Under the pieces are notes generated by a model. It saw nothing but the letters and a program-made list of their open reading frames with translations, was not told the DNA's origin and made no database searches. Shown piece after piece: positions 3,901-63,508 of a stretch of DNA of 64,000 nt. Source of the stretch: Wenzhouxiangella sp. 15190. GTDB taxonomy: Bacteria; Pseudomonadota; Gammaproteobacteria; Xanthomonadales; Wenzhouxiangellaceae. Made by a program: the position numbers and the translations under genes. Each line of letters begins with the position of its first letter. The stretch's first letter is position 1. Where the stretch lies: the NCBI RefSeq assembly GCF_003417465.1, contig NZ_QVMV01000003.1, forward strand, positions 1 through 64,000. Reading direction: 5' to 3'.

Positions 3901-3935
3901 GTTTCAAAATTCGAATGACCGAAATTCCAATGTCC
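3901..3935 (+). repeat. Dispersed repeat family D, partial copy (D1)
   Basis: Two imperfect copies of the 14-nt unit AAATTCGAATGACC lie head to tail (CAAAATTCGAATGACC then GAAATTCCAATGTCC). They match half of the longer copies at 47213-47290, 38322-38393 and 63438-63508. The copy sits 56 bp downstream of the phosphotransferase stop, with no inverted partner arm nearby. Confidence 0.7.
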
Positions 3936-4049
3936 TAAGCCGGGCAATGGTGCCGTTGTGGGTTTTTAGCCACTGCGGGACTAAATGCACTATTCGTACG
4001 TGCATTTTTATACGACATTGATTGGTGTGTTCAATCGGAAGGGAGTGGG

Positions 4050-4643
4050 ATGGAACAGGGAGAGATTTTCAGCAACGAGAAGGTGGATGCCTCGACGCTG
4101 CCTGATTTTCAGCGCGTCGAGCTCACGCCGGTGGCGGATGCCTACCTGCCCTGGGCACTGATCACGCAGACGCTGTTCTGGCTGCTGCTGGCCGCCGTTG
4201 CCGTGGTGCTGCCGCTGCTGCCCTTCGAGATTTTTGATGTAATGGTGGCGATGGGATTCTGGTGGCTGCCGCTGCCGCCGCTGGGCGTGGCGGTGATCGC
4301 GGCGGTCCATGCCCGGCTGGATGCCCGCTATCGCGCCTGGGCGCTGCGCGAGCATGATCTGATCTACCGCTACGGGGTCGTTTGGCGCAAGACGGTGATC
4401 GTGCCGTTTGCCCGAATCCAGCACGTCGAGGCGGTGCACGGACCGCTGGAGCGCTACCTGGACCTGATGCGGGTCAAGTGCTTCACCGCCGGCGGCATGA
4501 CCGCCGACCTGACCGTCAAGGGACTGGATCGAGCCTCAGCGCGACGTGTGCGCCAATACCTGCTCGAGCAAATCGCTGCAAGCGCCGATGGCGACGAGCA
4601 AACTGATGAGCAGGCACAGGAGTCGGCCCGTGAGGCCGATTGA
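4050..4643 (+). CDS. PH-domain membrane protein (bPH2/DUF304, YdbS-like)
   Basis: A 197-residue membrane protein with two transmembrane segments (about 33-58 and 65-85), followed by a bacterial pleckstrin-homology domain. The typical core is ALREHDLIYRYGVVWRKTVI with PFARIQHVEAVHGPLERYLDL. The C-terminus is acidic and disordered. It pairs with the larger bPH2 protein that overlaps its 3' end, the same arrangement as ydbS-ydbT in Bacillus and its proteobacterial counterparts. The function is not established; a membrane-associated role is inferred. Confidence 0.8.
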   Translation: MEQGEIFSNEKVDASTLPDFQRVELTPVADAYLPWALITQTLFWLLLAAVAVVLPLLPFEIFDVMVAMGFWWLPLPPLGVAVIAAVHARLDARYRAWALREHDLIYRYGVVWRKTVIVPFARIQHVEAVHGPLERYLDLMRVKCFTAGGMTADLTVKGLDRASARRVRQYLLEQIAASADGDEQTDEQAQESAREAD

Positions 4644-6156
4644 TCTCAATACCTGGCAGCGTCTCGCACCGATGGCGTTGCTGTTCTTGATCATCAACGG
4701 CGGCGCGAAGTTCGTTCGCGAGAATCTCTATGCCTTTGCCGGCGCCGGTGCCGGTTTCGCCTTCCTCGATCGGCTGGGTATGCGCGAATTCCTGCTCGGC
4801 GGCTTGATTGCGCTGCTCGTGGCCGTGCTGATTGCCGCGATCTACCACCGGCGTTTCCGGTTCCGAATCGAAGGCGATGCCATTCGCCTTCGCCGAGGCA
4901 TCATTGAAAACAAGGACTTGCGCATCCGTTTCGCGCGTATTCAGAACGTGGGTTTGAGCCAGCCGATCTACTTCCGGCCCTTCGGGCTGGTGCGCTTTAC
5001 GCTCGAAACGCCGGGTGCGGAGTCCACCGAAGTGGCGCTGCCGGGTATCAGCCGCGAGCTGGCCCTTGCGCTGCGCGACCACATCGCCCGGGCGGGTGGT
5101 GGGGCGATTGCGGAAGCCAGTGATGAGGATGTGACGGCGGAAGAGGCCGTAGAAGATGTCGGTCGCGAGACGGGCGATACCGCGGTCCTGCATCGGCCCG
5201 GCAGCCTGCGACTGTTCACCCATGGTCTGGTCAGCAACCAGGTCTGGCTGATCGCCGGCGTGGGCGCCTGGCTGATCGGTACGCTGCGGGAACGCTTCGA
5301 GCAGTGGATCGACTCGATTGGTGTCAGCCTGGTGGCACAGCGCCTTATCGAGTTGGGCTGGGTTGCGGCCCTGGCGGGTGTGTTGTCGCTGGTCCTGTTG
5401 CTGTTCGGACTCTCGGGCGTGCTGTCCCTGATCCGCTTTCACGGCTTCGTGCTGCGCGATCTTGGAGATCGCTTTCTGGCAGTCGGCGGGCTGCTCGACA
5501 AGCGTGAGCAGAATATCCGTCGTGAGAAACTCACCGGGCTCACCCTCTACCAGACCGCCCTTGGCCGCCTGATTGGTCAGTGGTATCTGGTCGGCAAACA
5601 GGCGACCAGCAAGGAAGTCGAGGTGGACCGCTCGGGTCAAAACTTCCTGATACCGGGCCTGAGGAAAGACAACTTCGACATCGTCGCCCGCCTTATGGAG
5701 GGCTTTTCGGTGCCGGATGAAATGCGACCGATCAGCCGCCGTTTCAGAACCCTGTTCTGGTCACGCATCAGTGCCGTCGCGCTGGTGCTGGCCGGGCTGG
5801 CATTCTGGCAGTTGCCGGACCAGCGTCTGGCGGTCGCCGGGGCCCTGGGTTTGCTGTTGCTGGTGCTGTGGTTGATCCACCGTAGCTGGCGTTGTTGGGG
5901 ATGGCAGGTCGCCGACGGTGTGTGCTGGATCCAGCAGGGGCTGTTCGGGCTGCGACGTGATGCTTTCGAGCTTTCCCAAGTGCAGCAGGCTTCGGTTGTG
6001 CGCACGCCGTACTTTCGACGTCACGGCCTGGCCTCGGTGCGACTGGTGCTCCCCCAGGGACAGGTCACGGTGCCGTTCATTGCCCTTGATGACGCGGTTG
6101 ATCTGGCCAATCGGGCGATCCATGCGGCCGAGACTTCCCTGGCGCATCGCGTCTGA
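4630..6156 (+). CDS. PH-domain membrane protein, multi-repeat (bPH2/DUF304, YdbT-like)
   Basis: A protein of about 508 residues with repeated bPH2 modules separated by pairs of transmembrane helices. The modules show the signature (I)RLRRGIIENKDLRIRFARIQ, then EQNIRREKLTGLTLYQ and IQQGLFGLRRDAF. GTG 4630 is chosen because AGGAG lies 7 nt upstream; in-frame ATGs at 4588 and 4606 have no such site. The start lies inside the 3' end of the YdbS-like gene, implying translational coupling and a shared complex. Confidence 0.78.
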   Translation: MRPIDLNTWQRLAPMALLFLIINGGAKFVRENLYAFAGAGAGFAFLDRLGMREFLLGGLIALLVAVLIAAIYHRRFRFRIEGDAIRLRRGIIENKDLRIRFARIQNVGLSQPIYFRPFGLVRFTLETPGAESTEVALPGISRELALALRDHIARAGGGAIAEASDEDVTAEEAVEDVGRETGDTAVLHRPGSLRLFTHGLVSNQVWLIAGVGAWLIGTLRERFEQWIDSIGVSLVAQRLIELGWVAALAGVLSLVLLLFGLSGVLSLIRFHGFVLRDLGDRFLAVGGLLDKREQNIRREKLTGLTLYQTALGRLIGQWYLVGKQATSKEVEVDRSGQNFLIPGLRKDNFDIVARLMEGFSVPDEMRPISRRFRTLFWSRISAVALVLAGLAFWQLPDQRLAVAGALGLLLLVLWLIHRSWRCWGWQVADGVCWIQQGLFGLRRDAFELSQVQQASVVRTPYFRRHGLASVRLVLPQGQVTVPFIALDDAVDLANRAIHAAETSLAHRV

Positions 6157-6192
6157 GCTCACCGCGATTGGCCGGGTCCGAGAGCGGCCCCG

Positions 6193-6201
6193 TGATAAAA
6201 T
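6193..6201 (+). promoter_or_regulatory. Extended -10 promoter element before prpB
   Basis: TGATAAAAT (6193-6201) fits an extended -10 (TGn plus TAAAAT), 36 bp before the prpB start, in the only gap of this stretch. No recognisable -35 is visible. A GGAG ribosome-binding site follows at 6223-6226. Confidence 0.4.
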
Positions 6202-6237
6202 GCGCGGCTGTTTCCCTACACCGGAGTCCGGTTGACA

Positions 6238-7122
6238 ATGAGCGATTACACGCCCGGCGCACGCTTTCGAAAGCTGGTGGCCGAACAGCCGCCACTGCAG
6301 GTCGTCGGCACCATCAATGCCTATTCCGCGCTGCTGGCCGAAAACGCGGGTCATCGCGCCATCTACCTGTCCGGCGGCGGCGTGGCGAACGCTTCCTACG
6401 GCCTGCCGGACCTGGGGATCACGCAACTGGCCGACGTGCTCGAGGACGCCCGTCGTATCACCGCCGTCAGCGACCTGCCGCTGCTGGTCGACGTCGATAC
6501 CGGCTGGGGCAGTGCGTTCAATATCGCCAGAACGATTCGTGAAATGGAGCGCGCCGGCGTGGCGGCCGTCCACCTCGAGGATCAGGTGGCGGCCAAGCGC
6601 TGCGGGCATCGGCCCAACAAGGCCCTGGTCAGCCCCGAGGAGATGGCCGACCGGGTGCGCGCCGCTGTCGACGCCCGGCAGGACGATTCGTTCGTGTTCA
6701 TGGCGCGTACCGACGCCTACGCCGGCGAGGGCATGGCCGCCGCGGTCGATCGGGCCAGTCTCTACGCCGAATCCGGGGCGGACATGATCTTCGCCGAGGC
6801 ACTGCACACGCTCGAGGAGTTCGCCGAGTTCGCCCGCCAGGTCGATGTGCCGGTGCTGGCCAATATCACCGAGTTCGGCAAGACGCCGCTGTTCTCGGTC
6901 GACGAGTTGCGCGAAGCGGGCGCCGGCCTGGTGTTGTATCCGCTGTCGGCCTTCCGCGCCATGAGCAAGGCGGCGCTGGCGGTGTACGAGGCGATCGGGC
7001 GCGACGGCCACCAGAAGAATGTGGTCGACTCGATGCAGACGCGCGATGAACTATACGAGGTGCTCGGCTATCACGAGTACGAACAGAAACTGGATCAGTT
7101 GTTCAGCAAGGAGTCGTCATGA
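6238..7122 (+). CDS. prpB: 2-methylisocitrate lyase
   Basis: Cleaves 2-methylisocitrate to succinate and pyruvate, the last step of the 2-methylcitrate cycle for propionyl-CoA. The 294-residue length and the ICL/PEP-mutase barrel fit. Visible motifs are [18 protein letters not shown], the metal-site stretch DVDTGWGS, and the catalytic loop KRCGH (residues 120-124, Cys122). ATG 6238 is preferred over the TTG two codons earlier. The stop overlaps the prpC start (ATGA), so the two are translationally coupled. No prpD, acnD or prpR is present in the window. Confidence 0.92.
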
Positions 7123-8240
7123 CCGAGAAGAAACCCTCAGCCGGCCTGCGCGGCCAGTCCGCCGGCCAGACCGAGATCTGCACCGTCGGTGCAGCGGGCA
7201 ACAGCCTGCGATATCGCGGCTATGCCGTCGACGATCTGGCCGAAAAGGCCTCGTTCAACGAGGTGGCCCACCTGATTCTCAAGGGGCATCTGCCCAATCG
7301 CGAGGAGCTGGACGCCTACACGAAGCGGCTGAAGTCGCTGCGCGGTCTGCCCGACGCGCTCAAGGAAGTGCTGGAGCGTATTCCGGATTCGGCACATCCC
7401 ATGGATGTCCTTCGGACCGGTTGTTCGTTCCTGGGCAACCTGGAAACCGAAGAGAGCTTCGACGCGCAACAGGATGTAGCCGATCGCCTGCTGGCGAGTT
7501 TCCCGTCGATGATCAACTACTGGTATCGCTTCAGCCACGACGGCAAGCGCATCGACGTGGAAACCGACGACGACAGCATCGGCGGCCATTTCCTGCACTT
7601 GCTGCACGGCAAGCCGCCGAGTGAACTGCACGCGCGGGTGATGGATGTCTCGTTGATCCTCTACGCCGAGCATGAATTCAATGCCTCGACCTTCACCGCC
7701 CGCGTGTGCGCCTCGACCCTGTCGGACATGCATTCCTGCGTGACCGGCGCCATCGGTTCACTCCGGGGCCCGCTGCACGGTGGCGCCAACGAGATGGCCA
7801 TGGCCATGCTCGAGCAATATCACACACCGGAGCAGGCGCGCGATGACGTGCTGCGCAAGCTCGAGGTCAAGGAAAAGATCATGGGCTTCGGTCACGCGGT
7901 CTATCGCGAGAAGGACCCGCGCAATGCGATTATCCGCGAGTGGTCGCGCAAGCTGTCCGAGGACGTCGGGGACGACACCTTGTTCCCCGTCTCGGAAATC
8001 GTCGAGAAGACGATGTGGGACGAGAAAAAGCTGTTCGCCAATGCCGACTTCTATCACGCCTCGGCCTATCACTTCATGGGTATCCCGACGGGGCTGTTCA
8101 CGCCGATTTTCGTGATGTCGCGTGTGACCGGCTGGTGCGCTCACATCATGGAGCAGCGCGCTGACAACCGTATCATTCGTCCCGGTGCGGATTACATCGG
8201 GCCTGACGATCGGGCAGTCCCTTCAATCGACGAACGATAA
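7119..8240 (+). CDS. prpC: 2-methylcitrate synthase (citrate synthase family)
   Basis: Condenses propionyl-CoA with oxaloacetate. The 373 residues match the short, dimeric-type citrate synthases. Active-site motifs are [10 protein letters not shown] (His220), [14 protein letters not shown] (His259) and the Asp near [12 protein letters not shown]. Assignment to methylcitrate rather than citrate synthase rests on coupling to prpB. The methylcitrate dehydratase step must be encoded elsewhere. A weak hairpin follows the gene. Confidence 0.88.
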
Positions 8241-8252
8241 CGGAACAGTGTG

Positions 8253-8269
8253 GCCGGGCACAGCCCGGC
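8253..8269 (+). terminator. Hairpin between prpC and DUF502 gene
   Basis: Perfect 7-bp stem GCCGGGC/GCCCGGC with an ACA loop, followed by the T-rich but interrupted TCTCTTAATCTTAT. It lies in the 39-bp gap between convergent genes, so it probably ends prpBC transcription, though it is not a strong intrinsic terminator. Confidence 0.45.
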
Positions 8270-8279
8270 TCTCTTAATC

Positions 8280-8897
8280 TTATCCTCCTCGTCGTGACAT
8301 TCCGGCGGTAAGAATCAACCGCAGGGCGTCCTCGAACTGAAGATCGACCGGCTCGCACCATGCCTTCGGCACGAACAGCGTGTAGCCGCCAATCTGGTAG
8401 CTCATCGGCAGGTAGACGGCGACCTCTCCCTCCTCGCCGAACGGCAGTTCGGAAAACTCCTCACGGGTAATGAAGCCCAGCAGGCCGGCTTTCAGTTCCG
8501 GGTGGCGGACCATGACGACCTGGCTGAAGCGCCGGGTGTCGTCACTGGAAAAATACCCCACGAAATCCTTGGTGGCCCGGAAGACCGACTTGATCACCGG
8601 CATGCGGTCGAGAATCGCTTCACCCAGATCGATGACCTTGCGAAACAGCCAGACCTGGCTGAGCACGCCGATGGCGAGCACCAGTGCGATACCGCCGACC
8701 AACCCCATCCCCGTAATGTAGAGGTCTTCCGGCAGGACCAGCTTGATCAGTGTCCCGATTCCTTTCTCGGCGATGCCGGCAAGCCAGATGACGATAGCTA
8801 CCGTCAGCGCGATCGGGATGATCGCGGCCAGACCCTTCAGGAACAAGCCGACGAGTCGCGTGACGAGGGATTCAGACTGTTCGGTTTCAAAGGTCAT
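8280..8897 (-). CDS. DUF502 family inner-membrane protein
   Basis: A 205-residue protein with two transmembrane helices (about 15-45 and 62-88), followed by a soluble domain with the DUF502 hallmark ILDRMPVIKSVFRATKDF and the later LPMSYQIGGYTLFVPKAW. The biochemical role of DUF502 is unknown. Its start overlaps the stop of the PspB-like gene, so the two are probably one transcript; an envelope-stress role is inference from that neighbour. Confidence 0.85.
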   Translation of the reverse strand: MTFETEQSESLVTRLVGLFLKGLAAIIPIALTVAIVIWLAGIAEKGIGTLIKLVLPEDLYITGMGLVGGIALVLAIGVLSQVWLFRKVIDLGEAILDRMPVIKSVFRATKDFVGYFSSDDTRRFSQVVMVRHPELKAGLLGFITREEFSELPFGEEGEVAVYLPMSYQIGGYTLFVPKAWCEPVDLQFEDALRLILTAGMSRRGG

Positions 8898-9096
8898 CGA
8901 TTTTTTTCCTCAGTTTCTCTCGCTGATCGGTGACGATGCGTTCGAGTGTCTCGATGCGCTCTCGCAACTCGGTTTCCACCCGTTCGAAGTGTTCCCGCTC
9001 GACGGCCTGGCTATGCCTTGACTCGAACCAGTACCGGGAAACGGCAACGATACCGATGATCGCGGCAATGGCAACCATGGCGGAAAAGAGATTCAT
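8887..9096 (-). CDS. Small PspB-like membrane protein
   Basis: A 69-residue protein with one N-terminal transmembrane helix (residues 3-22), then a charged coiled coil (RVETELRERIETLERIV). This is the layout of the phage-shock protein PspB (membrane helix, then RIQALE-type coiled coil). No pspA, pspC or pspF lies nearby, so the assignment is by form only. It overlaps the DUF502 gene by 11 bp. Confidence 0.55.
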   Translation of the reverse strand: MNLFSAMVAIAAIIGIVAVSRYWFESRHSQAVEREHFERVETELRERIETLERIVTDQREKLRKKIDDL

Positions 9097-9126
9097 ATTC
9101 CAATCCTTCTGCGAGGGACAGACAAT

Positions 9127-10191: not shown

Positions 10192-10328
10192 AAGGGGAGA
10201 TAACGTAACCGCTTCCCGTCCCGGTGGAAAGACCTGTTATGGTGCTTCGAGCCCGATCGGGGGAACTCGCCGCGCCCAAGCGCGGTCTTGATAAACCGCG
10301 AGCCTGCCCCTAGAGGAGGGGATGGCGA

Positions 10329-11291: not shown

Positions 11292-12028
11292 GTCTTCGAA
11301 ATATCTCAACGGTCATGCGGCGTGAGCTGATCGGCTATTTTGCCACGCCGGTCGCCTACGTGTTCATCGTCATCTTCCTGATGATGTCCTCGGCGTTCAC
11401 GTTCTACCTGGGCGGCTTCTACGAACGTGAAATCGCCGACCTGGAGCCGTTCTTCCGCTTCCATCCCTGGCTGTACCTGTTCCTGGTGCCGGCCGTGGGC
11501 ATGCGGCTGTGGGCCGAGGAGCGCAAGTCCGGCACGGTCGAGCTGTTGCTGACCCTGCCGTTGACCATCACCGAGGCCGTGGTCGGCAAGTTCGTCGCGG
11601 CCTGGCTGTTCATCGGCCTGGCGCTGGCACTGACCTTTCCCATCTGGATCACCGTCAATATGCTGGGCAACCCGGACAACGGCGTGATCGTGGCTGCCTA
11701 TATCGGTAGCTGGTTGATGGCCGGCGGAATGCTCGCCATCAGCGAAGCGCTTTCAGCGGTCACGCGCAACCAGGTGGTGGCCTTCATTATTTCGGTGGTG
11801 GTGTGTTTCGGTTTCCTGCTGTCGGGCCTGCCGATGGTGCTCGATCTCTTCCGGGGCTGGATGCCACAAGTGCTGCTCGACGGCGTGGCCAACCTGAGCT
11901 TCCTGGTGCATTTCAATTCGATTTCCCGTGGCGTCATCGACTTGCGCGATCTGGTGTACTTCGCCCTGGTCATCGGCTTCTGGCTGACGGCCAATCGCAT
12001 CGTGCTCGAACTGAAAAAGGCGGACTGA
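11288..12028 (+). CDS. ABC-2 type permease (GldF-like)
   Basis: A 246-residue inner-membrane permease with six hydrophobic segments. It begins with the amphipathic MSLRNISTVMRRELIGYF and carries the ABC-2 motif RLWAEERKSGTVELLLTLPL. It overlaps the ATPase stop by 4 bp and is followed 3 nt later by the GldG-like gene. With the ATPase it should form an export-type transporter; the cargo is unknown. Confidence 0.87.
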   Translation: MSLRNISTVMRRELIGYFATPVAYVFIVIFLMMSSAFTFYLGGFYEREIADLEPFFRFHPWLYLFLVPAVGMRLWAEERKSGTVELLLTLPLTITEAVVGKFVAAWLFIGLALALTFPIWITVNMLGNPDNGVIVAAYIGSWLMAGGMLAISEALSAVTRNQVVAFIISVVVCFGFLLSGLPMVLDLFRGWMPQVLLDGVANLSFLVHFNSISRGVIDLRDLVYFALVIGFWLTANRIVLELKKAD

Positions 12029-12031
12029 GTC

Positions 12032-13879
12032 ATGAAGAACGTCTACAGTGCAACCGGGCTGGTGCTGCTTGCGATCCTGTTCCTCGCCCTGACCATTCTC
12101 GGCGGGGCGGCCCTGCGCGGCATGCGCATCGACTTGACCGAACAGGGGCTCTACACGCTCAGCTCCGGAACGATCGACATCCTGGAGGATCTGGAGGAGC
12201 CGGTCACGCTCGAGTTCTACTTCAGCGAGGAGGCCAGCGCCGATCTACCGATGGTGCGCAATTTCGCCCGTCGTGTTCAGGAACTGCTCGACGAGATGGC
12301 CGAGCAGGCCGACGGCAATCTGCGCGTGCGCCGCGTCGACCCGGAGCCCTTCAGCGAGGCGGAGGACCAGGCCGCCAGTTATGGCCTGGAAGCCGCGCCG
12401 GTGGGTAGCGGCGGCGACAGCGTCTATCTCGGGATCGTCGGTACCAACACGATCGACGGTCTGGAGGTCCTGCCGTTTCTCTCGCCTTCGCGAGAGCAGT
12501 TCCTCGAGTACGAGCTCGCGCGCATGGTCTATCTGCTCAGCCGGCCCGACAAGCCGCGCGTCGCGCTGCTCAGCGGCATCGACATGGACGGCGGCATGGA
12601 CATGCAGACCGGCCAGCAGCGTGACCCATGGGCCATCCAGGAACAGATCAACGAGATGTTCGAAGTCGAAACGGTGGCCGCCGAGGACGATTCCCTGCCC
12701 GATGATGTGGATGTGCTCGCACTCATCCATCCCCAGGGACTGTCGGAAGCGCTGCTTGCCGATATCGAGCGATTCCTTTCCGAGGGCGGAAGATTGCTGG
12801 CCTTCGTCGATCCCTGGGCCGAGAACGCCACGCCGGCCAACCCGAATGACCCCATGGCTGCGATGAACATGGATCGCGGTTCGAATCTGGCAACCTTGTT
12901 CGATGCGTGGGGGGTCGATTTCAGCCCCGAGCGCTTCGTTGCCGACGCCGGTCTGGCGCTGCAGGTGAATACCGCCCAAAGCCAGCGGCCGGTACGGCAT
13001 GTCGGTATCCTGGGCGTCACAGGAGACAACATGAATGCCGACGACGTCATCACCGGTGAACTCGACGCGGTCAACCTGGCCAGTGTGGGCCGGCTGGCGC
13101 TTGGCGAGGACAGCCCGCTCGAGATGGAGCCGTTGATGCGCTCGAGCGAGCAGGCGGGCCTGATGGACGCCGAGCAGCTCCAGATGCTGTCCGATCCCTC
13201 GGAGTTGATCGACCAGATGGGCGCCACCGGCGAGCAATACACGCTGGCCGCGAGGCTCAGCGGTGAGGTACCGAAGGTGCTTGGTGGCGGTAATGGCGAA
13301 TATCCACTCAACGCCATCGTCGTCGCTGACGTCGACATGCTCGCCGACCGCTACTGGGTGCAGCGTCAGCGTTTCTTCGGGACGAGCGTGCTCGAACCCT
13401 TTGCCGACAACGGCGATTTCGTGATCAATGCCATCGACAACCTGATCGGCAACGCCGACCTGATCAGCGTTCGTTCGCGCGCGACATCGAACCGGCCGTT
13501 CACGCTGGTCGAATCGCTTCGACGCGAGGCCGAGGAAAACCTTCGCTCCACGGAACAGCGTCTCGAAGCCGAACTGGCCGAGACCGAGCAGCGGCTCACC
13601 GAACTGCAGCAGGCTCGGGGCGGTACGGATCTCGATATCCTCACCGAGGAGCAGGAGGCTGAACTCGATCGCTTCATGGAGCAGCGCGTGGAGATCCGGC
13701 GCGAACTACGTCAAGTGCGCCGCGAACTTGACGAGGAGATCGAGGAGTTGGGCACGCGCATCAAGGTGCTCAATATCGCGCTGATGCCCGCGTTGGTCAC
13801 CCTGTTCGCGCTCGGCCTGGCATGGCGCAAGCGGCGGCAGCGCTACCAGAGCGACGCGGTGGGAGGTGACGGACAATGA
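12032..13879 (+). CDS. GldG-family ABC auxiliary protein
   Basis: A 615-residue membrane-anchored protein. It has an N-terminal transmembrane helix (about 8-30), then the ABC_transp_aux domain starting GMRIDLTEQGLYTLSSGT and continuing LEFYFSEE, then an intrinsic extracytoplasmic region. A coiled coil (about 490-580, ETEQRLTELQQARGG) precedes a C-terminal helix (about 582-602). This order is characteristic of GldG-like partners of GldA/GldF transporters. No gliding-motility genes are present, so the name denotes family only. Confidence 0.82.
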   Translation: MKNVYSATGLVLLAILFLALTILGGAALRGMRIDLTEQGLYTLSSGTIDILEDLEEPVTLEFYFSEEASADLPMVRNFARRVQELLDEMAEQADGNLRVRRVDPEPFSEAEDQAASYGLEAAPVGSGGDSVYLGIVGTNTIDGLEVLPFLSPSREQFLEYELARMVYLLSRPDKPRVALLSGIDMDGGMDMQTGQQRDPWAIQEQINEMFEVETVAAEDDSLPDDVDVLALIHPQGLSEALLADIERFLSEGGRLLAFVDPWAENATPANPNDPMAAMNMDRGSNLATLFDAWGVDFSPERFVADAGLALQVNTAQSQRPVRHVGILGVTGDNMNADDVITGELDAVNLASVGRLALGEDSPLEMEPLMRSSEQAGLMDAEQLQMLSDPSELIDQMGATGEQYTLAARLSGEVPKVLGGGNGEYPLNAIVVADVDMLADRYWVQRQRFFGTSVLEPFADNGDFVINAIDNLIGNADLISVRSRATSNRPFTLVESLRREAEENLRSTEQRLEAELAETEQRLTELQQARGGTDLDILTEEQEAELDRFMEQRVEIRRELRQVRRELDEEIEELGTRIKVLNIALMPALVTLFALGLAWRKRRQRYQSDAVGGDGQ

Positions 13880-14946: not shown

Positions 14947-14952
14947 GGCACC

Positions 14953-15876: not shown

Positions 15877-15887
15877 GGGGCAAGATC

Positions 15888-15924
15888 ATATCAAATAACT
15901 ATGAAATCGATATGCTGGGGTGAT
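15888..15924. promoter_or_regulatory. Candidate OxyR operator
   Basis: Four tetrads with exact 7-nt spacing follow the OxyR pattern ATAG-n7-CTAT-n7-ATAG-n7-CTAT: ATAT (15888-15891), CTAT (15899-15902), ATAT (15910-15913) and TGAT (15921-15924). They score 3, 4, 3 and 2 matches out of four. The site begins 12 bp upstream of the oxyR start, where autoregulation would be expected, and about 35 bp before the divergent thioesterase gene. Confidence 0.5.
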
Positions 15925-15947
15925 GCCGGCATTCTGTCTCGCTCGCG

Positions 15948-15953
15948 TATACT
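15948..15953 (+). promoter_or_regulatory. -10 element of the thioesterase gene; likely leaderless transcript
   Basis: TATACT ends 6 nt before the ATG at 15960. A start site 6-8 nt downstream of the -10 would fall on or next to the ATG, so the mRNA would have almost no 5' UTR. No Shine-Dalgarno is visible before the ATG, which agrees. No clear -35 is seen. Confidence 0.4.
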
Positions 15954-15959
15954 GCGGGC

Positions 15960-16355
15960 ATGAATGAGCACGAAGTTCGCATCGAACAATCACGCACGCG
16001 CATCACCAAACTCGTGTTCCCGCAGGACACCAACCCCATCGGCACGCTCTACGGGGGCACGGCGCTGAAGTGGATGGACGAGGTCGCATTTCTGACCGCT
16101 ACGCGCTTCGCTCGCTGCCAGATCGTGACCGTCTCCATGGACCGGGTGGATTTCAAGGTGCCGATTCCGCAGGGCGCCATCGTCGAACTGGTTGGAGAGG
16201 TCACGAAGGTCGGGAACACCTCGGTGACCGTCCGTGTACAGATCCTGCTCGAAAACACGCGTAGCGCCACCCAGAAGCTGGCAATCGAGGGGCATCTTGC
16301 CATGGTTGCCGTCGATGACGACATGGAGCCGATTTCAGTGATCCGTGACGCCTGA
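15960..16355 (+). CDS. Acyl-CoA thioesterase, hotdog fold (YciA-like)
   Basis: A 131-residue single-hotdog protein. The motif NPIGTLYGGTALKWMDEVAF holds the active-site Asp of the YciA/BACH group, followed by VDFKVPIPQGAIVEL. It hydrolyses acyl-CoA thioesters; chain-length preference is unknown. It starts at ATG 15960 directly after a -10 box and lies divergent from oxyR, possibly sharing its operator. It ends 5 bp from the convergent RuBisCO-like gene. Confidence 0.82.
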   Translation: MNEHEVRIEQSRTRITKLVFPQDTNPIGTLYGGTALKWMDEVAFLTATRFARCQIVTVSMDRVDFKVPIPQGAIVELVGEVTKVGNTSVTVRVQILLENTRSATQKLAIEGHLAMVAVDDDMEPISVIRDA

Positions 16356-16360
16356 GCGGT

Positions 16361-17464: not shown

Positions 17465-17503
17465 CTTCGGAACTTGGTAACTCGCGGATTAGGTCGGGAC
17501 AGT

Positions 17504-17575
17504 GGTCAGTTATCGGTGGTCGGTGGTCTGTGTTGAGTTGACGGACTACAGACCACCGACAACCGACAACCGACC
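17504..17575. repeat. Inverted repeat family E (E1)
   Basis: Two 28-nt arms (17504-17531 and 17548-17575) are built of 7-nt units of the type GTCGGTT/GTCGGTG. They are complementary at nearly every position and separated by 16 nt. The single copy in a divergent gap, between the RuBisCO-like gene and trpS, it ends 5 bp before a -10-like TACAAT. A second copy lies at 42287-42337. Confidence 0.85.
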
Positions 17576-17580
17576 CAGCT

Positions 17581-17586
17581 TACAAT
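17581..17586 (+). promoter_or_regulatory. -10 element before trpS
   Basis: TACAAT lies 31 bp before the trpS ATG and immediately after repeat E1. The only -35-like hexamer (CCGACA, 17556-17561, 19-bp spacing) is inside the repeat arm, so the insertion may have rebuilt the trpS promoter. Confidence 0.35.
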
Positions 17587-17617
17587 AAGCCGTTTGGATC
17601 CGAGCCAGAAACCAGCC

Positions 17618-19311: not shown

Positions 19312-19313
19312 AG

Positions 19314-23749: not shown

Positions 23750-23777
23750 CCTCTTATGCCGGTTCCGGAAAACAATG

Positions 23778-23858
23778 AACCACGGAAGACACTGAAATCA
23801 CGGAGGTCAAAAAGGATCTGCTGATGACATTCCGTGTTTTCAGTGATTTCCGTGGTTG
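23778..23858. repeat. Inverted repeat family A (A1)
   Basis: Arms 23778-23804 and 23830-23857 are built of CACGGAA-type units about 10 nt apart (CACGGAA, CACTGAAA, CACGGA). They are complementary with about four mismatches across a spacer of about 24 nt. It lies between the E2 stop and the next gene on the minus strand. Copy A2 is at 43818-43892 and shares an arm with a single difference. Confidence 0.85.
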
Positions 23859-23873
23859 CATGTTTTTCGGCCT

Positions 23874-38152: not shown

Positions 38153-38224
38153 ATGGAAGGACGCCGCGCTTTCGAGTCCCGGATAGGGGATCCGCAAACT
38201 ACTCGCCTTTTGGCTATGGATCGG

Positions 38225-38393
38225 GCTTGAAGAATCCCAAATTTCAAGCACCCATATGCGAGGTCAATAAGGGCCGATCTGACCCGGGATTGCGGCAAAC
38301 CGCATGATCTCGCCGGCGGCCCGGTTTGGGTCATTGAAATTTCGTTCATTGGGAATTGTTTGAAATTTGGTGCTTGTGATTTGGTACTTCAAC
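38225..38393. repeat. Repeat family D with inverted partial arm (D3)
   Basis: The long arm (38322-38393, minus orientation) aligns over about 65 nt with the copy at 63438-63508 (units like CACAAGCACCAAAT and GAAATTTCAATGACC). A shorter opposite-sense arm (38225-38251, TCCCAAATTTCAAGCACC) lies about 70 nt to the left. It occupies most of the 272-bp convergent gap between the hypothetical gene and the deacetylase, which holds no other feature. Confidence 0.75.
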
Positions 38394-38424
38394 CGGCGTT
38401 GAGCCGTAACAGCAAGCCACCGAT

Positions 38425-42286: not shown

Positions 42287-42337
42287 GACTGTAGTCTGTC
42301 GTCAGAGGTGCAGACCACAGACTACCGACTACCGACC
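42287..42337. repeat. Inverted repeat family E (E2), spans the rsgA stop codon
   Basis: The left arm 42287-42303 and right arm 42313-42329 pair at 14 of 17 positions across a 9-nt loop. The right arm continues with another GTCGGTA unit to 42337. It begins on the base after the SDR stop and contains the TAG stop and last two codons (Gly-Arg) of rsgA on the other strand. The sequence matches E1 in its 7-nt unit. Confidence 0.8.
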
Positions 42338-43817: not shown

Positions 43818-43892
43818 AACCACGGAACTCACTGAAAACACGGAAGAGTGAAAAGGTTTTCTTTTTCCGTGCCTTCCGTGATTTCCGTGGTT
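43818..43892. repeat. Inverted repeat family A (A2)
   Basis: Arms 43818-43845 and 43865-43892 are complementary over 28 nt with a few mismatches and 19 nt between. The units are CACGGAA-type with about 10-nt period. The left arm differs by one base from the complement of the right arm of A1, 20 kb away. It lies in the convergent orn/ppsA gap. Confidence 0.85.
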
Positions 43893-47210: not shown

Positions 47211-47212
47211 TC

Positions 47213-47290
47213 CGTTTGGAACATTCGAATTTCGATCATTCGAATTTGTTTGGAAATTGGGTTTTGGGATTTGGTGCTTGAAGTTGGGCA
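47213..47290. repeat. Dispersed repeat family D (D2)
   Basis: In complement it reads through CACCAAATCCCAAAACCC, TTTCCAAACAAATTCGAATG and ATCGAAATTCGAATGTTCC. This is the same order as the copy at 63438-63508 in the opposite orientation. It lies between the ppsR stop and the DUF1249 gene. Confidence 0.8.

Positions 47291-49082: not shown

Positions 49083-49090
<8 letters not shown>
47966..49090 (+). CDS. carA: Carbamoyl-phosphate synthase small (glutaminase) subunit
   Basis: A 374-residue glutamine amidotransferase subunit that delivers ammonia to CarB for arginine and pyrimidine synthesis. The N-terminal CPSase domain has [19 protein letters not shown]. The class I GATase has SNGPGDPEP and the nucleophile Cys in [12 protein letters not shown], with His/Glu in [13 protein letters not shown] 47966 has GGAGG 7 nt upstream. 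It overlaps carB by 8 bp. Confidence 0.96.
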
Positions 49091-52298
<3,208 letters not shown>

Positions 52299-52314
52299 TC
52301 CCTTAGGAGTAACT

Positions 52315-55398: not shown

Positions 55399-55478
55399 GT
55401 GTGCTGGCCGCTGGTGACTGGGCGGCGTTACAATAGCGCGTTTTGCCATTCAGACTTGCTACAAGGATCACAGCCGAA

Positions 55479-56577: not shown

Positions 56578-56581
56578 ATTT

Positions 56582-56739
56582 TGTCCACAGATGAACACAG
56601 ATGAACACAGATATGGATTTTTTTGAGCTTTAGAGCGCTACGGGAATTCATCGTGTTCGAAGGTGGATAGTTAAAGCTGGTTTCATTTTATTTTTCAATC
56701 TGTGTTTATCTGTGTTTATCTGTGTTCATCTGTGGACAG
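56582..56739. repeat. Inverted repeat family B (B1)
   Basis: The left arm (56582-56612) has three 10-nt units CACAGATGAA preceded by TGTC. The right arm (56697-56739) has four complementary units ATCTGTGTTT/ATCTGTGTTC ending in TGGACAG. The arms are near-perfect complements; the AT-rich spacer is about 85 nt. It fills the gap between prfB and lysS. Confidence 0.85.
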
Positions 56740-56758
56740 TTTTTTAAAGTGATTTTCA

Positions 56759-58294
<1,536 letters not shown>

Positions 58295-58315
58295 CGCGGG
58301 CCTGCGCGAGTACAG

Positions 58316-60160
58316 TCAGCAGCTGGAGCCGCGGAAGGCATCCTCGAAGATCAGATTCATCCCTGCTGCGGGTGCGAGTATTTCCACGTTCCTCTCCATA
58401 TCGTTGCCGTCACCACACAGGTCGAGCTTAACTCGGGAATTGACCGGCGGAGCGTCCGTTTCGATTTCGAAGTTGAACAGCGTGAACCAGCTCAGGGGAT
58501 TGCCGGGGGGCGCCTGGAAGGACACGTAAGTGTCGTGAACTCCGATACGCCAGTCATTGACAGCATCCCTGTCAGTGTCTCCGAAATACGTGTCGAAAAC
58601 CGTGGCGTTGTCAGGCAGCTCGATACGGAAGCCTTCCAGTGCCCGGTCGAAGTCGTAGTTCTGCAGCGCGTAGTTGTATCGATAGCGGTCGGTTTCGACC
58701 TCGGTGACCTTGACCAGGAGCCGCAGGTGGCCCTGCGGCATGTTATCGGGGTAGTCTTGTTCGGGGGATTCGGACGCAATGACGATGACTTCGTGGTCGG
58801 TCTTGGGACCGGTATTTCCGGTGCCTACCCATTCCGATACGACGGGACCGTTCGTGAACGTTCCTTCATTCATCACCCAGCCGTCGCCGATTGGTTCCGG
58901 ATCGATGGGCCGGTACCCCATGGTGTTCCAGATGTCGACGTCGTGCTGCACGACATACCAGGCATCCATGAAGTACTCGGCTCCGGGCCGCTGTAGCTCG
59001 TCGGGGTCGACCAGAAGCCGGTGCTGCCACTCGCCGGCATCGTCGGTTAGACTGCCGGTGCAGTCCGGGTCGAAGAAGGAGCCGCAGTTGTCCCACTCGC
59101 CTATGCTGGCTTCGATCTCGTTTCGCGGGCCCTGGTGGGCCGGCATGTCGTTGCTGCCGGCCGCGTAGATGTCCTCGCAGCCTTTCCAGACCACGTTGTT
59201 GTTGTCACAGTTGATGTCGCAGGAAGTATTGACTGTGAAGAAAGCGTGTTTTGCCCCCGAAGCGGCCAGCATCTCGATCCGGCCGTCGGCGATTCGGTAA
59301 AGATTCCAGACCAGGTAGGCGTGCTGGTCGGACGGTTCGAAGGGGTAGTCGTAGCCATCGAGTGTTTCGAACTGTGGAATCCAGGGGATATCCGCTTCGG
59401 AAACATTCTTGAGGATGGCCGAGGGGGCGAGCTTGATACGGCCGTCGGCGTGCTTACCCTGGTAGGCGACGTTGTTCATTCCGATCAGCTCGATATCCGC
59501 CTCCACGCCGTCCTGCGGCCAGATCGGTCGTCCGTCACATGCCTCCGGCAACCCGGAGAGGTCGCCGCGGTCCGTGATCTCGAGTTCGAGATCCATCCGG
59601 GCCGCGCCGATCGGCATCCCGGCCAGTTTCCCGAAGCCCAGTCGCCGCGCCAGATCTTCTGTCGCTTCCAGTTCGGCGTGACTGACGGAAAATCGCCCGT
59701 CTTCGATATCAAGCGATACGTGCAGATGGGACAGCGTGAAAAGGGCATTGTCCCGGTCGTCCAGGACGACGAACCGGGGATGCCCGGCACTTTCTCCGGG
59801 AAGGATCGTCATCGTGTCGATGATGACTTCCCGGTCGCCACGGCGAAGGACGACGTCCGCCTCGGCAGTCAGCCGTCCGCTGCCCGGCTTTAGTGCCTCG
59901 AAGACGCCCCGGGGCGCGTCAATGCCGACCGGCTCGGTAGCATCGACCCGAAATCTCAGCTGCTTGCGCGTGGTGATCGGTTGCCCGCCATGAAGAATTT
60001 CGATACCGAAATCCGGGAGGTAATCACCACGCATCTCCAGCGTCAGGCTACCGGCACCGGCTTGCAGGGATGCCTCCGAATACGCGGATCCGGCCCAGAT
60101 GAGTTGTGCGAGGCAGGCTGTTGCCAGTAATAAAAGGGTGGACAGGCCGCGGAGATTCAT
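58316..60160 (-). CDS. Large exported protein, function unknown
   Basis: A 614-residue protein with a signal peptide (about 1-30 from ATG 60160: MNLRGLSTLLLLATACLAQL). The mature part is acidic and beta-rich with several Cys, some in short pairs (TSCDINCDNN, FFDPDCTGS), and ends in GSSC. I recognise no catalytic domain. Location outside the inner membrane is inferred. It lies 21 bp from convergent lysS. Confidence 0.65.
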   Translation of the reverse strand: MNLRGLSTLLLLATACLAQLIWAGSAYSEASLQAGAGSLTLEMRGDYLPDFGIEILHGGQPITTRKQLRFRVDATEPVGIDAPRGVFEALKPGSGRLTAEADVVLRRGDREVIIDTMTILPGESAGHPRFVVLDDRDNALFTLSHLHVSLDIEDGRFSVSHAELEATEDLARRLGFGKLAGMPIGAARMDLELEITDRGDLSGLPEACDGRPIWPQDGVEADIELIGMNNVAYQGKHADGRIKLAPSAILKNVSEADIPWIPQFETLDGYDYPFEPSDQHAYLVWNLYRIADGRIEMLAASGAKHAFFTVNTSCDINCDNNNVVWKGCEDIYAAGSNDMPAHQGPRNEIEASIGEWDNCGSFFDPDCTGSLTDDAGEWQHRLLVDPDELQRPGAEYFMDAWYVVQHDVDIWNTMGYRPIDPEPIGDGWVMNEGTFTNGPVVSEWVGTGNTGPKTDHEVIVIASESPEQDYPDNMPQGHLRLLVKVTEVETDRYRYNYALQNYDFDRALEGFRIELPDNATVFDTYFGDTDRDAVNDWRIGVHDTYVSFQAPPGNPLSWFTLFNFEIETDAPPVNSRVKLDLCGDGNDMERNVEILAPAAGMNLIFEDAFRGSSC

Positions 60161-60297
60161 TCTTGCGCGCTGGGGACTCGAAATGAAATGGCAGTCGGCC
60201 GAGACTACCCCATTTCCACCGTCCTTGTGAACGTCGGGCGGCCCCGAGCGAAAAGCGCGCCCGATCCCGCGCGACGGGTCAGGGCGTTGAGCCCTTG

Positions 60298-61749
60298 TCA
60301 ACCATGGGCGGCGGCTGGTGGTGACCGGTGCCGATTTTCTTTCGTCGATTGCCTGCGTGGCCGCCACTGGGCCAGCCATCTTTCGGCGCTATCCGGAAAG
60401 CGCTGCTGGACGAAGTGCCGCAATTCTCGTGCTCTCGGTGCGTCGCCGAGCCGCTCTTCCAGGATGCGCGCCGCCTCCATCCATGCCTCTGCAATATGGA
60501 AGAACTTGCGATCGTCCTGCGGCAGGCTGAGAAGAAGCCGGCAAGCGATCTGGTGGTCGCCCAGTTCGTCGAGTTCCAGCGCAAGGCGGTACCGGGTTTC
60601 GCTCAGACGAGGCACCCAGTTGTCGAGGCTCGGGCTGTTTCGCTGCCACAATTCGGTTGCCGCGGCGACCTGACCACCGCGGATGAGGCGCTGCATGCGG
60701 CGTTCGAGATGATTGCGATATTCGTCGGGTCCCGCCGTCTCCCAGACCAGCTGGTCGAACAACGCATTGAGAGCCGGTTCGTCCGGGTAGCGCGTGAGCG
60801 CCGTTCCCAGCAGTTGCCTTGCCTCATGCAAGTGGTTTTCGCGCAGTAGCACTTCGGCATCGGCCGCCATCAGGGCCGGTTCATACAAGGCGGGTTCCGG
60901 ACGGCGCGGGCGATCGATGCGGGCGACGCCGGCAGGATAGTCGAGCCTGCGGCGATGGGTGCGAGCGATCATGCCCACCCGTGCGCTTATCCCCAGGGCG
61001 AGCATGGTGGCGATGAATGCCAGCGGACCGCGAACAAAGACAGCGCCATCGCCCGCGAGAGCGATTACACCCGCGCCCGCGATGACGGTAGCCATGGCCA
61101 GTAGCGAGAGTTTCACCAGTTCCCGCTTCGTGACACCGACGACGTGGGCGACCGATGCCGGATTGAACGCTGCACGAGGAGATTCGAAAACAATCGCCGT
61201 CATCAGTGCCGCGGGTAGAACGGCAGCGGCTGCAAGCCAGGTCAGGGTCGCCAGTGCTGTCGAAGTCGCCGCCATTGTGATCAGCAGCAGCAAGATGAAT
61301 GGCAATCCGAAAGTCAGTATGCGACAGCCGTATTCGATCTGGTCGATATCGATCAGATCTCCGAGTGAAGGTGGATGCGCCAGGCCTTCGCCGGCTCTAC
61401 GCGTCAATATGACCATCATGTAAAACAGCAGGACGCCCAACGGCAGAGCCAGGACAAGCCCCGGCAGAGAGTCGAAGCCGACTGTTCCGACCGTGGCCGC
61501 AAGGGCGGCGATGACTAATGCTGGTGGGCAGGTCGCGTTCTTTCCGGGAATCTCGATCGGATCGGCTTGATCGACCCCTGCGGCTCGCTCCTGCATGGCT
61601 TTTCCGCAAAGCGGGCAGCCGACTTCCATGGGAAGTTGCTCGGCGTAGGGCTTGCAGGAGGTGCAAAGGGGCAGTAGGCAGGACTCACAGTACCAGTGGA
61701 TCGAACGCTGCGAATGGTAACGGCAACTGGAAGGGGTTGGGTGCTTCAT
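60298..61749 (-). CDS. B-box-type zinc-finger, multi-TM, TPR membrane protein
   Basis: A 483-residue protein. The N-terminal zinc-binding cluster Cys9-x2-His12-x8-Cys21-x2-Cys24-x4-Cys29-x2-Cys32, plus a CPLC at 45-48, resembles a B-box. About six hydrophobic helices follow (about 75-265), then a helical TPR-like C-terminus (about 295-460). It is upstream of the large exported protein on the same strand. Function unknown; the fold parts suggest protein-protein contacts at the inner membrane. Confidence 0.65.
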   Translation of the reverse strand: MKHPTPSSCRYHSQRSIHWYCESCLLPLCTSCKPYAEQLPMEVGCPLCGKAMQERAAGVDQADPIEIPGKNATCPPALVIAALAATVGTVGFDSLPGLVLALPLGVLLFYMMVILTRRAGEGLAHPPSLGDLIDIDQIEYGCRILTFGLPFILLLLITMAATSTALATLTWLAAAAVLPAALMTAIVFESPRAAFNPASVAHVVGVTKRELVKLSLLAMATVIAGAGVIALAGDGAVFVRGPLAFIATMLALGISARVGMIARTHRRRLDYPAGVARIDRPRRPEPALYEPALMAADAEVLLRENHLHEARQLLGTALTRYPDEPALNALFDQLVWETAGPDEYRNHLERRMQRLIRGGQVAAATELWQRNSPSLDNWVPRLSETRYRLALELDELGDHQIACRLLLSLPQDDRKFFHIAEAWMEAARILEERLGDAPRARELRHFVQQRFPDSAERWLAQWRPRRQSTKENRHRSPPAAAHG

Positions 61750-61887
61750 AGAGCCTCACTCCATCGTCACCCCCTTTTTATTGAAGGATTTCAGTTCATT
61801 GGTCGGCCAAGTCTATCAGCAATTGAGGTGCCCGCCCAAGACGCATCTGCATGGCAGGCGTATGATGGCGATACAATTTCCGGATGA

Positions 61888-62466
61888 ATGGATTCCATGC
61901 AGTCTTCGCGATTCTTTCGTCTCCGACCGGGCCCGGAAGTGGCCTTGTTCTTCATCGGCCTGATGCTGAGCTTTCCCTGTATGGCGCGTAGTCCCCTGGA
62001 ATTGGTCGACTCGCTCGACCTGGAGCGCTATCAAGGGCGCTGGTACGAGATTGCGCGGTTGCCCAACCGATTCCAGAGCCATTGCGACGGTGAGGTGACG
62101 GCCGAATATGCCTTGCTCGACGACGGGCGGGTCAGCGTCACCAACCGCTGCCGCCGGGCGGACGGGAGCTGGAGCGAGGCCGAAGGTATTGCCCGGCCCG
62201 ACGATGCCGACAGCCGTGAATCGGCGCTGGAAGTCCGGTTTGCCCCGCGATGGCTTTCCTGGCTGCCTTTTGTCTGGGGCGAGTACCGGGTCATGGCGCT
62301 GGATGACGATTATCAGTATGCACTGGTCGGCAGTGACGACAGGGAGCTGCTGTGGATACTGGCGCGGCAGCCGGAATTGCCGGACGATATTTTTGAGCAC
62401 CTGGTGGCCGAAGCGCAACGACAGGGCTTCGACACGACGGGCTTGATCCGAACGGAGCATCGATGA
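61888..62466 (+). CDS. Lipocalin family protein (Blc-like)
   Basis: A 192-residue lipocalin. An exported N-terminus (hydrophobic about 18-33, cleavage likely after FPCMA) is followed by the lipocalin signature DLERYQGRWYEIARLPNRFQ, VTNRCRRADGSWSEAEG and GEYRVMALDDDYQYALVGSD. Blc relatives bind lysophospholipids or fatty acids at the outer membrane; the Cys here does not fit a lipobox well. A TACAAT box (61872-61877) precedes the ATG. Overlaps the next gene by 4 bp. Confidence 0.88.
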   Translation: MDSMQSSRFFRLRPGPEVALFFIGLMLSFPCMARSPLELVDSLDLERYQGRWYEIARLPNRFQSHCDGEVTAEYALLDDGRVSVTNRCRRADGSWSEAEGIARPDDADSRESALEVRFAPRWLSWLPFVWGEYRVMALDDDYQYALVGSDDRELLWILARQPELPDDIFEHLVAEAQRQGFDTTGLIRTEHR

Positions 62467-63437
62467 TCGACGTGATCGTGATTGGTGCCGGCTGGAGCGG
62501 GCTGACCGCTGCGGCGAGGCTTGCTTCCAGCGGCCGTTCCGTTGCCGTGGTCGAGAAGTCCCGCGGCCCTGGTGGGCGCAGTGCAACGAGGCGAGAGGAG
62601 GGGTTCATCTTCGACCACGGCGCACAGTACTTGACGGCGCGCAGCGACGCATTTTCCCGCCAGGTCGAGGCCTGGACGGGTGCCGGGCTTCTTGCGCCGT
62701 GGACGCCAAGCTTGACCGTGTTCGGAAAGCGGCCCGATCATGCCGGCGAGTCACCGGCACGGCGTTGGGTCGGCGTCGGCGGGATGAATGCCGTGCTGCA
62801 TCGTCTCGCCGGTGGGCTCGACTGCCGCTGGGGCTGGCGCGCCGAATCCATCGAATTCGACAGGCAATCCTGGCGGGTCCGTTCGACCGATGGGCAGTTG
62901 CTGGAAGCTTGTTCTCTGCTGGTGACCGCGCCGCCGGCCCAGTCATCCGCTTTGCTGGGGCCGGAGCACGCCTTTTCCGGGCAGCTCGATACGGTCGAGA
63001 TGCTGCCGTGCTGGTCGGTCATGGTGGGCTTTGCAGAGCCACCGGCCACCGCCTTCGACGCCGCATTCGTCAACGAAGGGCCGTTGTCCTGGGTCGCACG
63101 CAACGACAGCAAACCCGGCAGTCAAAGCACGTCGGCCTGGATCGGGCATGCCAGTGCGGCGTGGTCGCGGGACAACCTGGAAGCCGAACCTGAAGAGGTG
63201 GCGGACGCGTTGTTCGCGGCCATGACTGAACTCGATTCCGCTTTCAACCGGCCTTCACGCCTGTGTCTTGCCCATCGCTGGCGCTATGCAATGGCTCGAG
63301 CTCCCCTGGACGGGCCGATACTGGCCGACGATGGGCGCAAGCTGGTGGTCGCCGGCGACTGGTGTGCCGGCGAACGAATCGAGGGTGCCTGGATCAGCGG
63401 CGTGGCGGCAGCGCAAAGGCTGGCGTCCGTGCTTTAG
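62463..63437 (+). CDS. FAD-dependent oxidoreductase (renalase-like)
   Basis: A 324-residue flavoprotein. The Rossmann FAD motif is VIVIGAGWSGLTAAARLA, then EKSRGPGGRSATRR with DHGAQYLTAR, and the C-terminal FAD contact is VVAGDWCAGERIEGAWISG. This is the renalase/amine-oxidase-like layout; bacterial renalases oxidise isomeric dihydronicotinamides, but the substrate here is not proven. Coupled to the lipocalin (ATGA). Repeat D4 starts at the stop codon. Confidence 0.82.
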   Translation: MIDVIVIGAGWSGLTAAARLASSGRSVAVVEKSRGPGGRSATRREEGFIFDHGAQYLTARSDAFSRQVEAWTGAGLLAPWTPSLTVFGKRPDHAGESPARRWVGVGGMNAVLHRLAGGLDCRWGWRAESIEFDRQSWRVRSTDGQLLEACSLLVTAPPAQSSALLGPEHAFSGQLDTVEMLPCWSVMVGFAEPPATAFDAAFVNEGPLSWVARNDSKPGSQSTSAWIGHASAAWSRDNLEAEPEEVADALFAAMTELDSAFNRPSRLCLAHRWRYAMARAPLDGPILADDGRKLVVAGDWCAGERIEGAWISGVAAAQRLASVL

Positions 63438-63508
63438 AAACCCAAATCCCAAGCACCAAGTACCAAACAAATTCGAATGATCAAAATTCGAATGACCCAA
63501 ACAGTCTG
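63438..63508. repeat. Dispersed repeat family D (D4)
   Basis: Plus strand: AACCCAAATCCCAAGCACC, AAGTACCAAACAAATTCG, then AATGATCAAAATTCGAATG and ACCCAAACAG. This is a run of about 14-nt units and the fullest copy of family D. It begins directly after the oxidoreductase TAG in the convergent gap before lpxH. Confidence 0.8.

Follow-up and report, generated by a model that had tools for sequence, protein, structure and literature searches.

One of the closest described counterparts of the repeats reported here is the intervening sequence of the Coxiella 23S rRNA, in which an S23p open reading frame (ORF) lies between inverted repeats, with GACAGAT heptamers before the ORF and a 28-bp terminal stem, and in which S23 is a pentamer of four-helix bundles (PMC4990558). 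A second is the REPIN-RAYT system, in which populations of short inverted repeats persist in a genome and the RAYT gene (a Y1 tyrosine transposase) lies elsewhere between the same repeats (PMC8049555). A third consists of intergenic tandem heptads: GGGAATC of Xanthomonas, which forms 70 inverted pairs in one genome and 75 in another and whose role was left open (PMC4692102), GGGGA(C/T)T of Nostoc (PMC4692102) and TAACTGA of Beggiatoaceae (PMC4679880). The STRR repeats of cyanobacteria belong with these heptads. Here we describe 11 copies of five repeat families (A to E) in a window of 64 kb (positions 1 to 64,000 of contig NZ_QVMV01000003.1, here C24) of the draft genome of Wenzhouxiangella sp. 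15190 (here G000; 3.13 Mb, 99.8% complete), and we conclude that they are probably the gene-less arms of two kinds of small hairpin-armed element, one carrying an S23/IVP gene (PF05635) and the other a GxxExxY gene (PF13366). In our best reading, the copies are hairpin-armed selfish or commensal elements, of which the gene-less ones would be served in trans, in the manner of REPINs without a transposase.

The likenesses and differences are as follows. The Coxiella sequence shares with the elements here an S23 ORF, inverted repeats, tandem heptamers and a suspected mobile nature (PMC4990558), but its place is within an rRNA gene and RNase III cuts it, whereas the elements here are intergenic, have diverse arms and include many arms-only copies; the accessible part of the Coxiella account has no GxxExxY kind (PMC4990558). 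REPINs likewise form persistent populations of short inverted repeats with their gene elsewhere (PMC8049555), but the partner is a Y1 transposase rather than S23 or a PD-(D/E)XK nuclease, and the arms here are made of tandem units. The published heptads agree in unit length (7 nt), in intergenic position and, in Xanthomonas, in often forming inverted pairs, but no gene is linked to them in the accessible parts of the two reports (PMC4692102; PMC4679880).

In a complete element a single small gene is framed by two arms, the right one being the reverse complement of the left one; the tandem units are 7, sometimes 8, nt long in the S23 kind, and 8–10 nt long with the core CRCNRA in the GxxExxY kind. 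There are five matches to PF05635 in G000, all five directly between inverted arms (given as contig and position):

C6:64503, S23 gene between C-type arms
C22:39082, S23 gene between E-type arms
C39:25596, S23 gene between D-type arms
C22:2071, S23 gene between arms of GTGTGAA heptads
C15:46353, S23 gene between arms of GGTTGGCT octads

The comparison covered 61 related genomes (labeled G, several of them incomplete, with G003 a sister species; loci are labeled L). At 37 of the 47 S23 loci examined there, out of at least 49 matches, the flanks contained inverted arms scoring above the best of 47 shuffles (one shuffle per locus), and 36 of the 47 exceeded the 99% level of a mismatched-pair control. 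The similarity of S23 proteins is correlated with that of their arms to a small degree (Mantel test, rho 0.20; one of 999 permutations as high). At one S23 locus (L013) each arm unit is long, comprising CTGGGGAACG and a small palindrome, and contains nested hairpins. S23 matches were also found in 36 plasmid records, and the five examined, all cyanobacterial, bear heptad arms. On two cyanobacterial plasmids (L317 and L318) an S23 gene with its own heptad arms, different in sequence between the two, sits between cas6 and cas4. The S23 protein of PDB 2gsc, XCC0516, has relatives at 86–88% identity in three genomes of the window's order, which are probably Xanthomonas, and some match in 148 of the 398 genomes drawn; among the best 30 loci of its relatives, which are not independent of one another (as loci within one genus are not), 29 are flanked by inverted heptads of the GGGAATC or a similar type. 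Judged by sequence, the GGGAATC heptads of Xanthomonas match the arms flanking close XCC0516 relatives.

For GxxExxY there are 42 matches in the 61 related genomes, and 28 of 29 loci (30 taken, one excluded for a short flank) have arms above the best of 29 shuffles. They include a gene between B arms in G003 (L036) and one between A-like arms in G006 (L053); the single match in G000 (L048) has arms of another sequence. A wider scan of named genomes by GxxExxY alignment kept 80 loci of at least 569 relatives, 76 of them with enough flank, and arms above the best of 380 shuffles were found at 44 of the 76; in a control shifted 900 nt upstream, none of 71 loci scored above 12, and mismatched pairs of named loci reached 22. 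Arm-bearing loci occur in Bacteroidota, Chloroflexota, Verrucomicrobiota, Planctomycetota, Acidobacteria, cyanobacteria and proteobacteria; the single archaeon in the named set had no arms, nor did the one examined of eight plasmid matches. One S23 and one GxxExxY protein had no match in a search for phage carriage. An S23 gene is also present in 29 of 35 named genomes with a GxxExxY locus (covering 36 of the 80 loci), and 22 of 30 S23 loci from these genomes have arms above 300 shuffles. Chance pairing is disfavored by the shuffled and shifted controls.

The arms differ in grammar according to the protein they enclose. Of the 77 S23 loci examined, 59 have arms, with a best lag of 7 at 42 of these and of 8 at 11; of the 105 GxxExxY loci examined, 72 have arms, and at 58 of these the best lag falls at 8, 9 or 10. 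Two or more instances of the core CRCNRA stand in the left arm at 59 of 72 GxxExxY loci and at one of 59 S23 loci. The left arm is purine-rich in both kinds (50 of 59 S23, 63 of 72 GxxExxY), and its best match among all right flanks of its class is its own right arm at 53 of 59 and 50 of 72 loci, respectively. A classifier given only the arms named the right gene family for 121 of 131 loci in leave-one-out tests, with a maximum of 81 in 20 label shuffles. Applied to nine window copies (all but D1 and E2), it assigned A1, A2 and B to GxxExxY and C1, C2 and E1 to S23; D3 and D4 lean to S23, and D2 fits neither class clearly. The D family is placed in the S23 class because D-type arms surround an S23 gene.

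The repeat copies of the window, with one candidate empty site, are:

D1, 3905..3938, + strand: short degenerate piece of a D-type arm; none in the orthologous G003 gap
E1, 17504..17575, + strand: inverted pair of heptads with GGTCGGT units, S23 class; gap 118 nt, against 35 nt and no repeat in G003
A1, 23765..23870, + strand: inverted pair of CACGGAA-type units, GxxExxY class; family retained in G003
C1, 32633..32747, + strand: AAAATAG heptads as an inverted pair, S23 class; the gap is 232 nt long here and 9 nt long in G003
C2, 34464..34592, + strand: AAAATAG heptads as an inverted pair, S23 class; the gap is 204 nt long here and 29 nt long in G003
D2, 38170..38394, + strand: D arms at 38237-38250 and 38357-38390 within a longer repeated unit; other content in the G003 gap
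E2, 42287..42336, + strand: weak inverted pair of heptads between convergent genes; other families in the gap of G003, G010 and G016
A2, 43818..43892, + strand: A-type inverted pair between convergent genes, GxxExxY class
D3, 47214..47274, - strand: lone D arm of 61 nt; G003 and G016 carry a diverged version at the same site
49083..49090, + strand: candidate empty site at a gene overlap; G018 has a complete GxxExxY element of 427 nt here
B, 56582..56738, + strand: loop of 93 nt between inverted arms built of CACAGATGAA units, GxxExxY class
D4, 63442..63502, + strand: lone D arm of 61 nt; the gap measures 156 nt here, and 41 nt with no repeat in G003

All 11 copies claimed in an earlier note on this DNA could be read at their places, and all lie between genes as judged from the ORF list (six convergent, four tandem, one divergent), with 35–57% GC against 62% for the window; that note had also called them intergenic and less GC-rich than the genes. 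Its description of most copies as two inverted arms applies to the majority, but D3 and D4 are single arms, D1 is degenerate and E2 is weak. The genes are absent from all of the copies, which consist of arms or of arms and a short spacer. Periodic inverted pairs number five in the window (A1, A2, B, C1 and E1) and zero in each of five shuffled windows. When 10 of the stretches (all but D1) were folded as DNA, A1, A2, B, C1, C2, E1 and D2 beat at least 199 of 200 shuffles and D4 beat 197; E2 (z -1.4) and D3 (z -1.0) were not distinct from their 200 shuffles. The proposal that several sequence solutions serve one architecture is borne out. The families had been said to share no sequence, which does not hold in full, as A and B have a common degenerate unit grammar and C, D and E a common heptad period; a suggested tie to four-helix-bundle or GxxExxY genes is supported and can be refined into two classes, S23 for C, D and E (7- or 14-nt units) and GxxExxY for A and B (8–10 nt).

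Families A, B and D are not unique in G000, with at least 61 BLAST rows for A (40 of 47 candidates scored), 67 for B on many contigs, and at least 42 for D (40 of 81 candidates scored); E gives three rows, two of which are the query itself. Dispersed paired inverted repeats with a spacer, a trait of REPINs, are seen in B, A and part of D. At the orthologous gaps of the sister species G003, five of the 11 window copies are missing (D1, E1, C1, C2 and D4), three gaps have other content (E2, A2 and D2) and three keep the family (A1, B and D3). Because A, B and D are repeated in the genome and the G003 gaps vary, neither of the two outcomes that the earlier note had set against a mobile class was found, namely that each copy be unique or that relatives all carry the same slowly diverging sequence. 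The E2 gap contains four families in four species (the window, G003, G010 and G016); at the A2 gap the window and G010 have A, G003 has a pair of octads, G018 has a pair of heptads, and G016 shows no clear pair; and the B gap has B in G003 as well, with an unalignable loop, and heptads in G016. A stretch of 4 nt in the window corresponds in G003 to a D-like pair that follows a terminator-like hairpin. In one gap with flanks about 80% alike, G000 and G006 carry GxxExxY genes that are 33% alike, with different arms. Two other differences between the window and G003 were noted: about 268 nt extra in G003 (L083, 3662-3931) against 5 nt in the window (12026-12032), where the two neighboring genes are the same, with inverted ends GTACCCCGTCACTCATT and resembling a MITE-like insert (miniature inverted-repeat transposable element) of a different type, and about 1.5 kb extra in G003 (L082, 18168-19700; window 15903-15978) with reading frames absent in the window.

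Arm-bounded units also recur at unrelated loci. L103 and L104, about 12 kb apart in G000 with unrelated flanks, have about 285 nt in common at 77% identity, from the start of the left B arm to inside the right B arm, and a D unit longer than the arms is common to four loci (D2, L110, L128 and L130). A common B loop was not found across different B loci, except in L103 and L104. The earlier note had supposed a mobile or processed class of element acted on in trans; turnover and recurrence are seen, and the action in trans is what we infer.

One difference between species has a complete element on one side. At the candidate empty site, an overlap of two genes that by our reading are carA and carB, G018 and four more relatives have a GxxExxY element (a 427-nt insert in G018), and the window, G003 and G016 have none. 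The empty sequence holds one arm unit, ACCGCAGATG, just 5′ of and spanning the gene overlap; in G018, an arm of the element provides the stop of the upstream gene. At the one junction read closely, any target-site duplication is at most a 3-nt repeat, ATG. The difference may be an insertion in one clade or a loss in the other, and as a single case it is no proof of targeting.

Between species, the arms of B elements are kept around lost or inverted loops. In 14 orthologous B pairs (with G003, G016 and G010; four of 18 excluded, their own copy having no arm pair), identity is 83% in the arms, 43% in the loops and 85% in the outer flanks, and the number of units differs between orthologous arms. 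Among 17 loop comparisons, three align only in inverted orientation (one at 91.6% over 286 nt), four align forward (one barely) and 10 do not align. The loop is 82–104 nt long in 10 of 14 read. Many B copies are old and inherited in place. Two contigs of G003 end in or beside B arms (L226 and L229), and the assembly may break at these repeats.

Several observations weigh against the reading of the copies as arms of mobile elements. B is present in the orthologous G003 gap at 14 of 20 G000 B loci, and these arms are conserved though G000 has no GxxExxY gene between B arms, so that a host function would also fit. Among gene-bearing elements, 24 of 26 pairs have matching flanks and none of the 24 shows an inversion; close relatives of complete elements are mostly at orthologous sites, and movement would therefore be slow. 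No clear target-site rule was found. Arms above the cut are lacking at 10 of 47 and eight of 30 S23 loci and at 32 of 76 named GxxExxY loci; because arms were sought in flanks of 300 nt and under strict cuts, some of these loci may still bear weak ones. Only four of 29 GxxExxY loci of the related genomes exceed the 99% level of the mismatched-pair control, because these loci share their arm grammar. S23 relatives below about 60% protein similarity do not have recognizably similar arms. In a Verrucomicrobia genome (L268), an S23 gene lies between GxxExxY-like GACGCGGA octad arms, the sole exception to the distribution of the core motif. Finally, what was observed is anatomy and turnover, and movement, binding and cutting are what we infer.

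The retained B arms with lost loops would also be expected if the arms were hairpins serving the host, as terminators, RNA-processing sites or nucleoid sites, with the small genes as passengers or recruited binding proteins. Six of the 11 window copies lie between convergent genes, and the Xanthomonas repeats are transcribed and mostly lie between the same genes in two species, according to the accessible part of that report (PMC4692102). Host use does not lead one to expect that arm grammar predicts which of two unrelated proteins sits inside, that sister-species gaps are empty or switched in family, or that arm-bounded units recur at unrelated loci, and we consider it unlikely; it stays a serious rival because G000 conserves its B arms although its one GxxExxY match lies between different arms. 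The variation in unit number among orthologous B arms would also fit an origin without any element, in which the polymerase slips and switches strands at palindromes that arose by chance and leaves simple tandem repeats behind; slippage has been proposed for heptads (PMC4692102). Such a process gives no account of arms at two gene families, of the class grammar or of units common to unrelated loci, and we regard it as very improbable.

A plan in which two inverted repeats are paired across a spacer of about 90 nt, in a genome with three Y1_Tnp matches, could suggest that the copies are REPINs of a RAYT family. The inverted pairs at the three Y1_Tnp genes are absent or of other sequence, none of the A–E arms is among the strong inverted pairs around these genes in G000, and complete elements carry S23 or GxxExxY; we give this account hardly any credence and reject a RAYT origin. 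One of these genes (L285, G000:C52:28502) has its own REP-like palindromes, CCGTAGGATGCG, unrelated to A–E. Nor does the gene of the complete copies fit MITEs of a DNA transposon: it is S23 or GxxExxY, and seven such proteins match no transposase model in Pfam or NCBIfam.

The kinship of S23 to Avd of diversity-generating retroelements raises an account at the level of RNA, in which the copies resemble rRNA intervening sequences, RNase III cuts the hairpin from transcripts, and a reverse transcriptase spreads the element in trans. Avd is a four-helix-bundle relative of PF05635 and works with an adjacent reverse transcriptase (PMC10053308), whereas S23 here has its own repeat arms and no reverse transcriptase in G000. 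Two of the five G000 S23 proteins match NCBIfam NF033474 and Pfam bAvd weakly, below the cut-offs, and RNase III does cut the Coxiella element (PMC4990558). Elements are present, however, in G000, G003 and G038, which have no RVT_1 match (19 of the 61 genomes have one), and spread by an RNA route in G000 would therefore need a visiting enzyme; GxxExxY is nearest to nucleases that process DNA ends, and none of 20 S23 loci scanned falls in a known RNA family. We consider this account improbable. A resident reverse transcriptase or diversity-generating retroelement was rejected, there being no RVT_1 match in G000. Location in rRNA, typical of intervening sequences, was not found, with no Rfam match in the 20 S23 loci or in the window; the S23 ORF between inverted repeats is found in the S23 kind. 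In G018, nine RVT_1 matches, four of equal score, lie within about 29 kb (C1:3792391-3820990).

The GxxExxY protein is a predicted PD-(D/E)XK nuclease. Both proteins scanned match the GxxExxY family (TIGR04256) and have a D..ExK motif; in sets of 16 and of 28 sequences, every one has the D, E, K and Q, and the Y that follows the Q four residues later is kept. Its predicted model (pLDDT 95.6) is nearest to SSO0001 (4ic1), which we take to be a Cas4, and to LHK-Exo and lambda exonuclease, with a query TM-score of 0.45–0.55 and a large root-mean-square deviation; the match is weak, with one of 482 rows at E ≤ 0.001. The protein thus has Cas4/lambda-exonuclease nucleases as its nearest predicted fold and keeps D..ExK and QxxxY, but differs from them in the weakness of the match (TM about 0.5) and in being a stand-alone protein of about 120–130 aa in a repeat-armed element. 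Because of the kept motif and the nearest structures, GxxExxY would appear to act on DNA hairpins.

For hairpin-armed elements of this sort we propose the following mechanism. The encoded protein would recognize arms of its own class when these are folded into a hairpin or cruciform, and the same protein would serve gene-less copies in trans. GxxExxY would cut or resect the hairpin DNA, and the freed strand may anneal at short matches, with inversion of the loop as a by-product. We know of no catalysis by S23, and because S23 lacks a known catalytic center, its kind would need other enzymes. The elements would be commensals of long standing, often placed between convergent genes or between the genes of an operon.

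A broader proposal, which we put forward only tentatively, is that hairpin-armed selfish elements of one design formed around two unrelated small proteins, S23 reading units of 7–8 nt and GxxExxY units of 8–10 nt; several bacterial heptad families may then be arms of the S23 kind, and the GxxExxY kind may represent DNA mobility in which a stand-alone nuclease resembling Cas4 and lambda exonuclease takes the role of a transposase. A limited literature search, outside which lay preprints and many journals, found no precedent for the GxxExxY half and no published link between these repeats and intergenic S23 or GxxExxY genes. The S23 half is an extension of the rRNA intervening sequences already known. 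The proposal offers a candidate owner for repeat families with no reported function, such as GGGAATC, and a candidate role for two widespread protein families and for unexplained intergenic hairpins in many phyla. If it is true, bacteria would harbor two more kinds of minimal mobile element for which no transposase, recombinase or reverse transcriptase is known.

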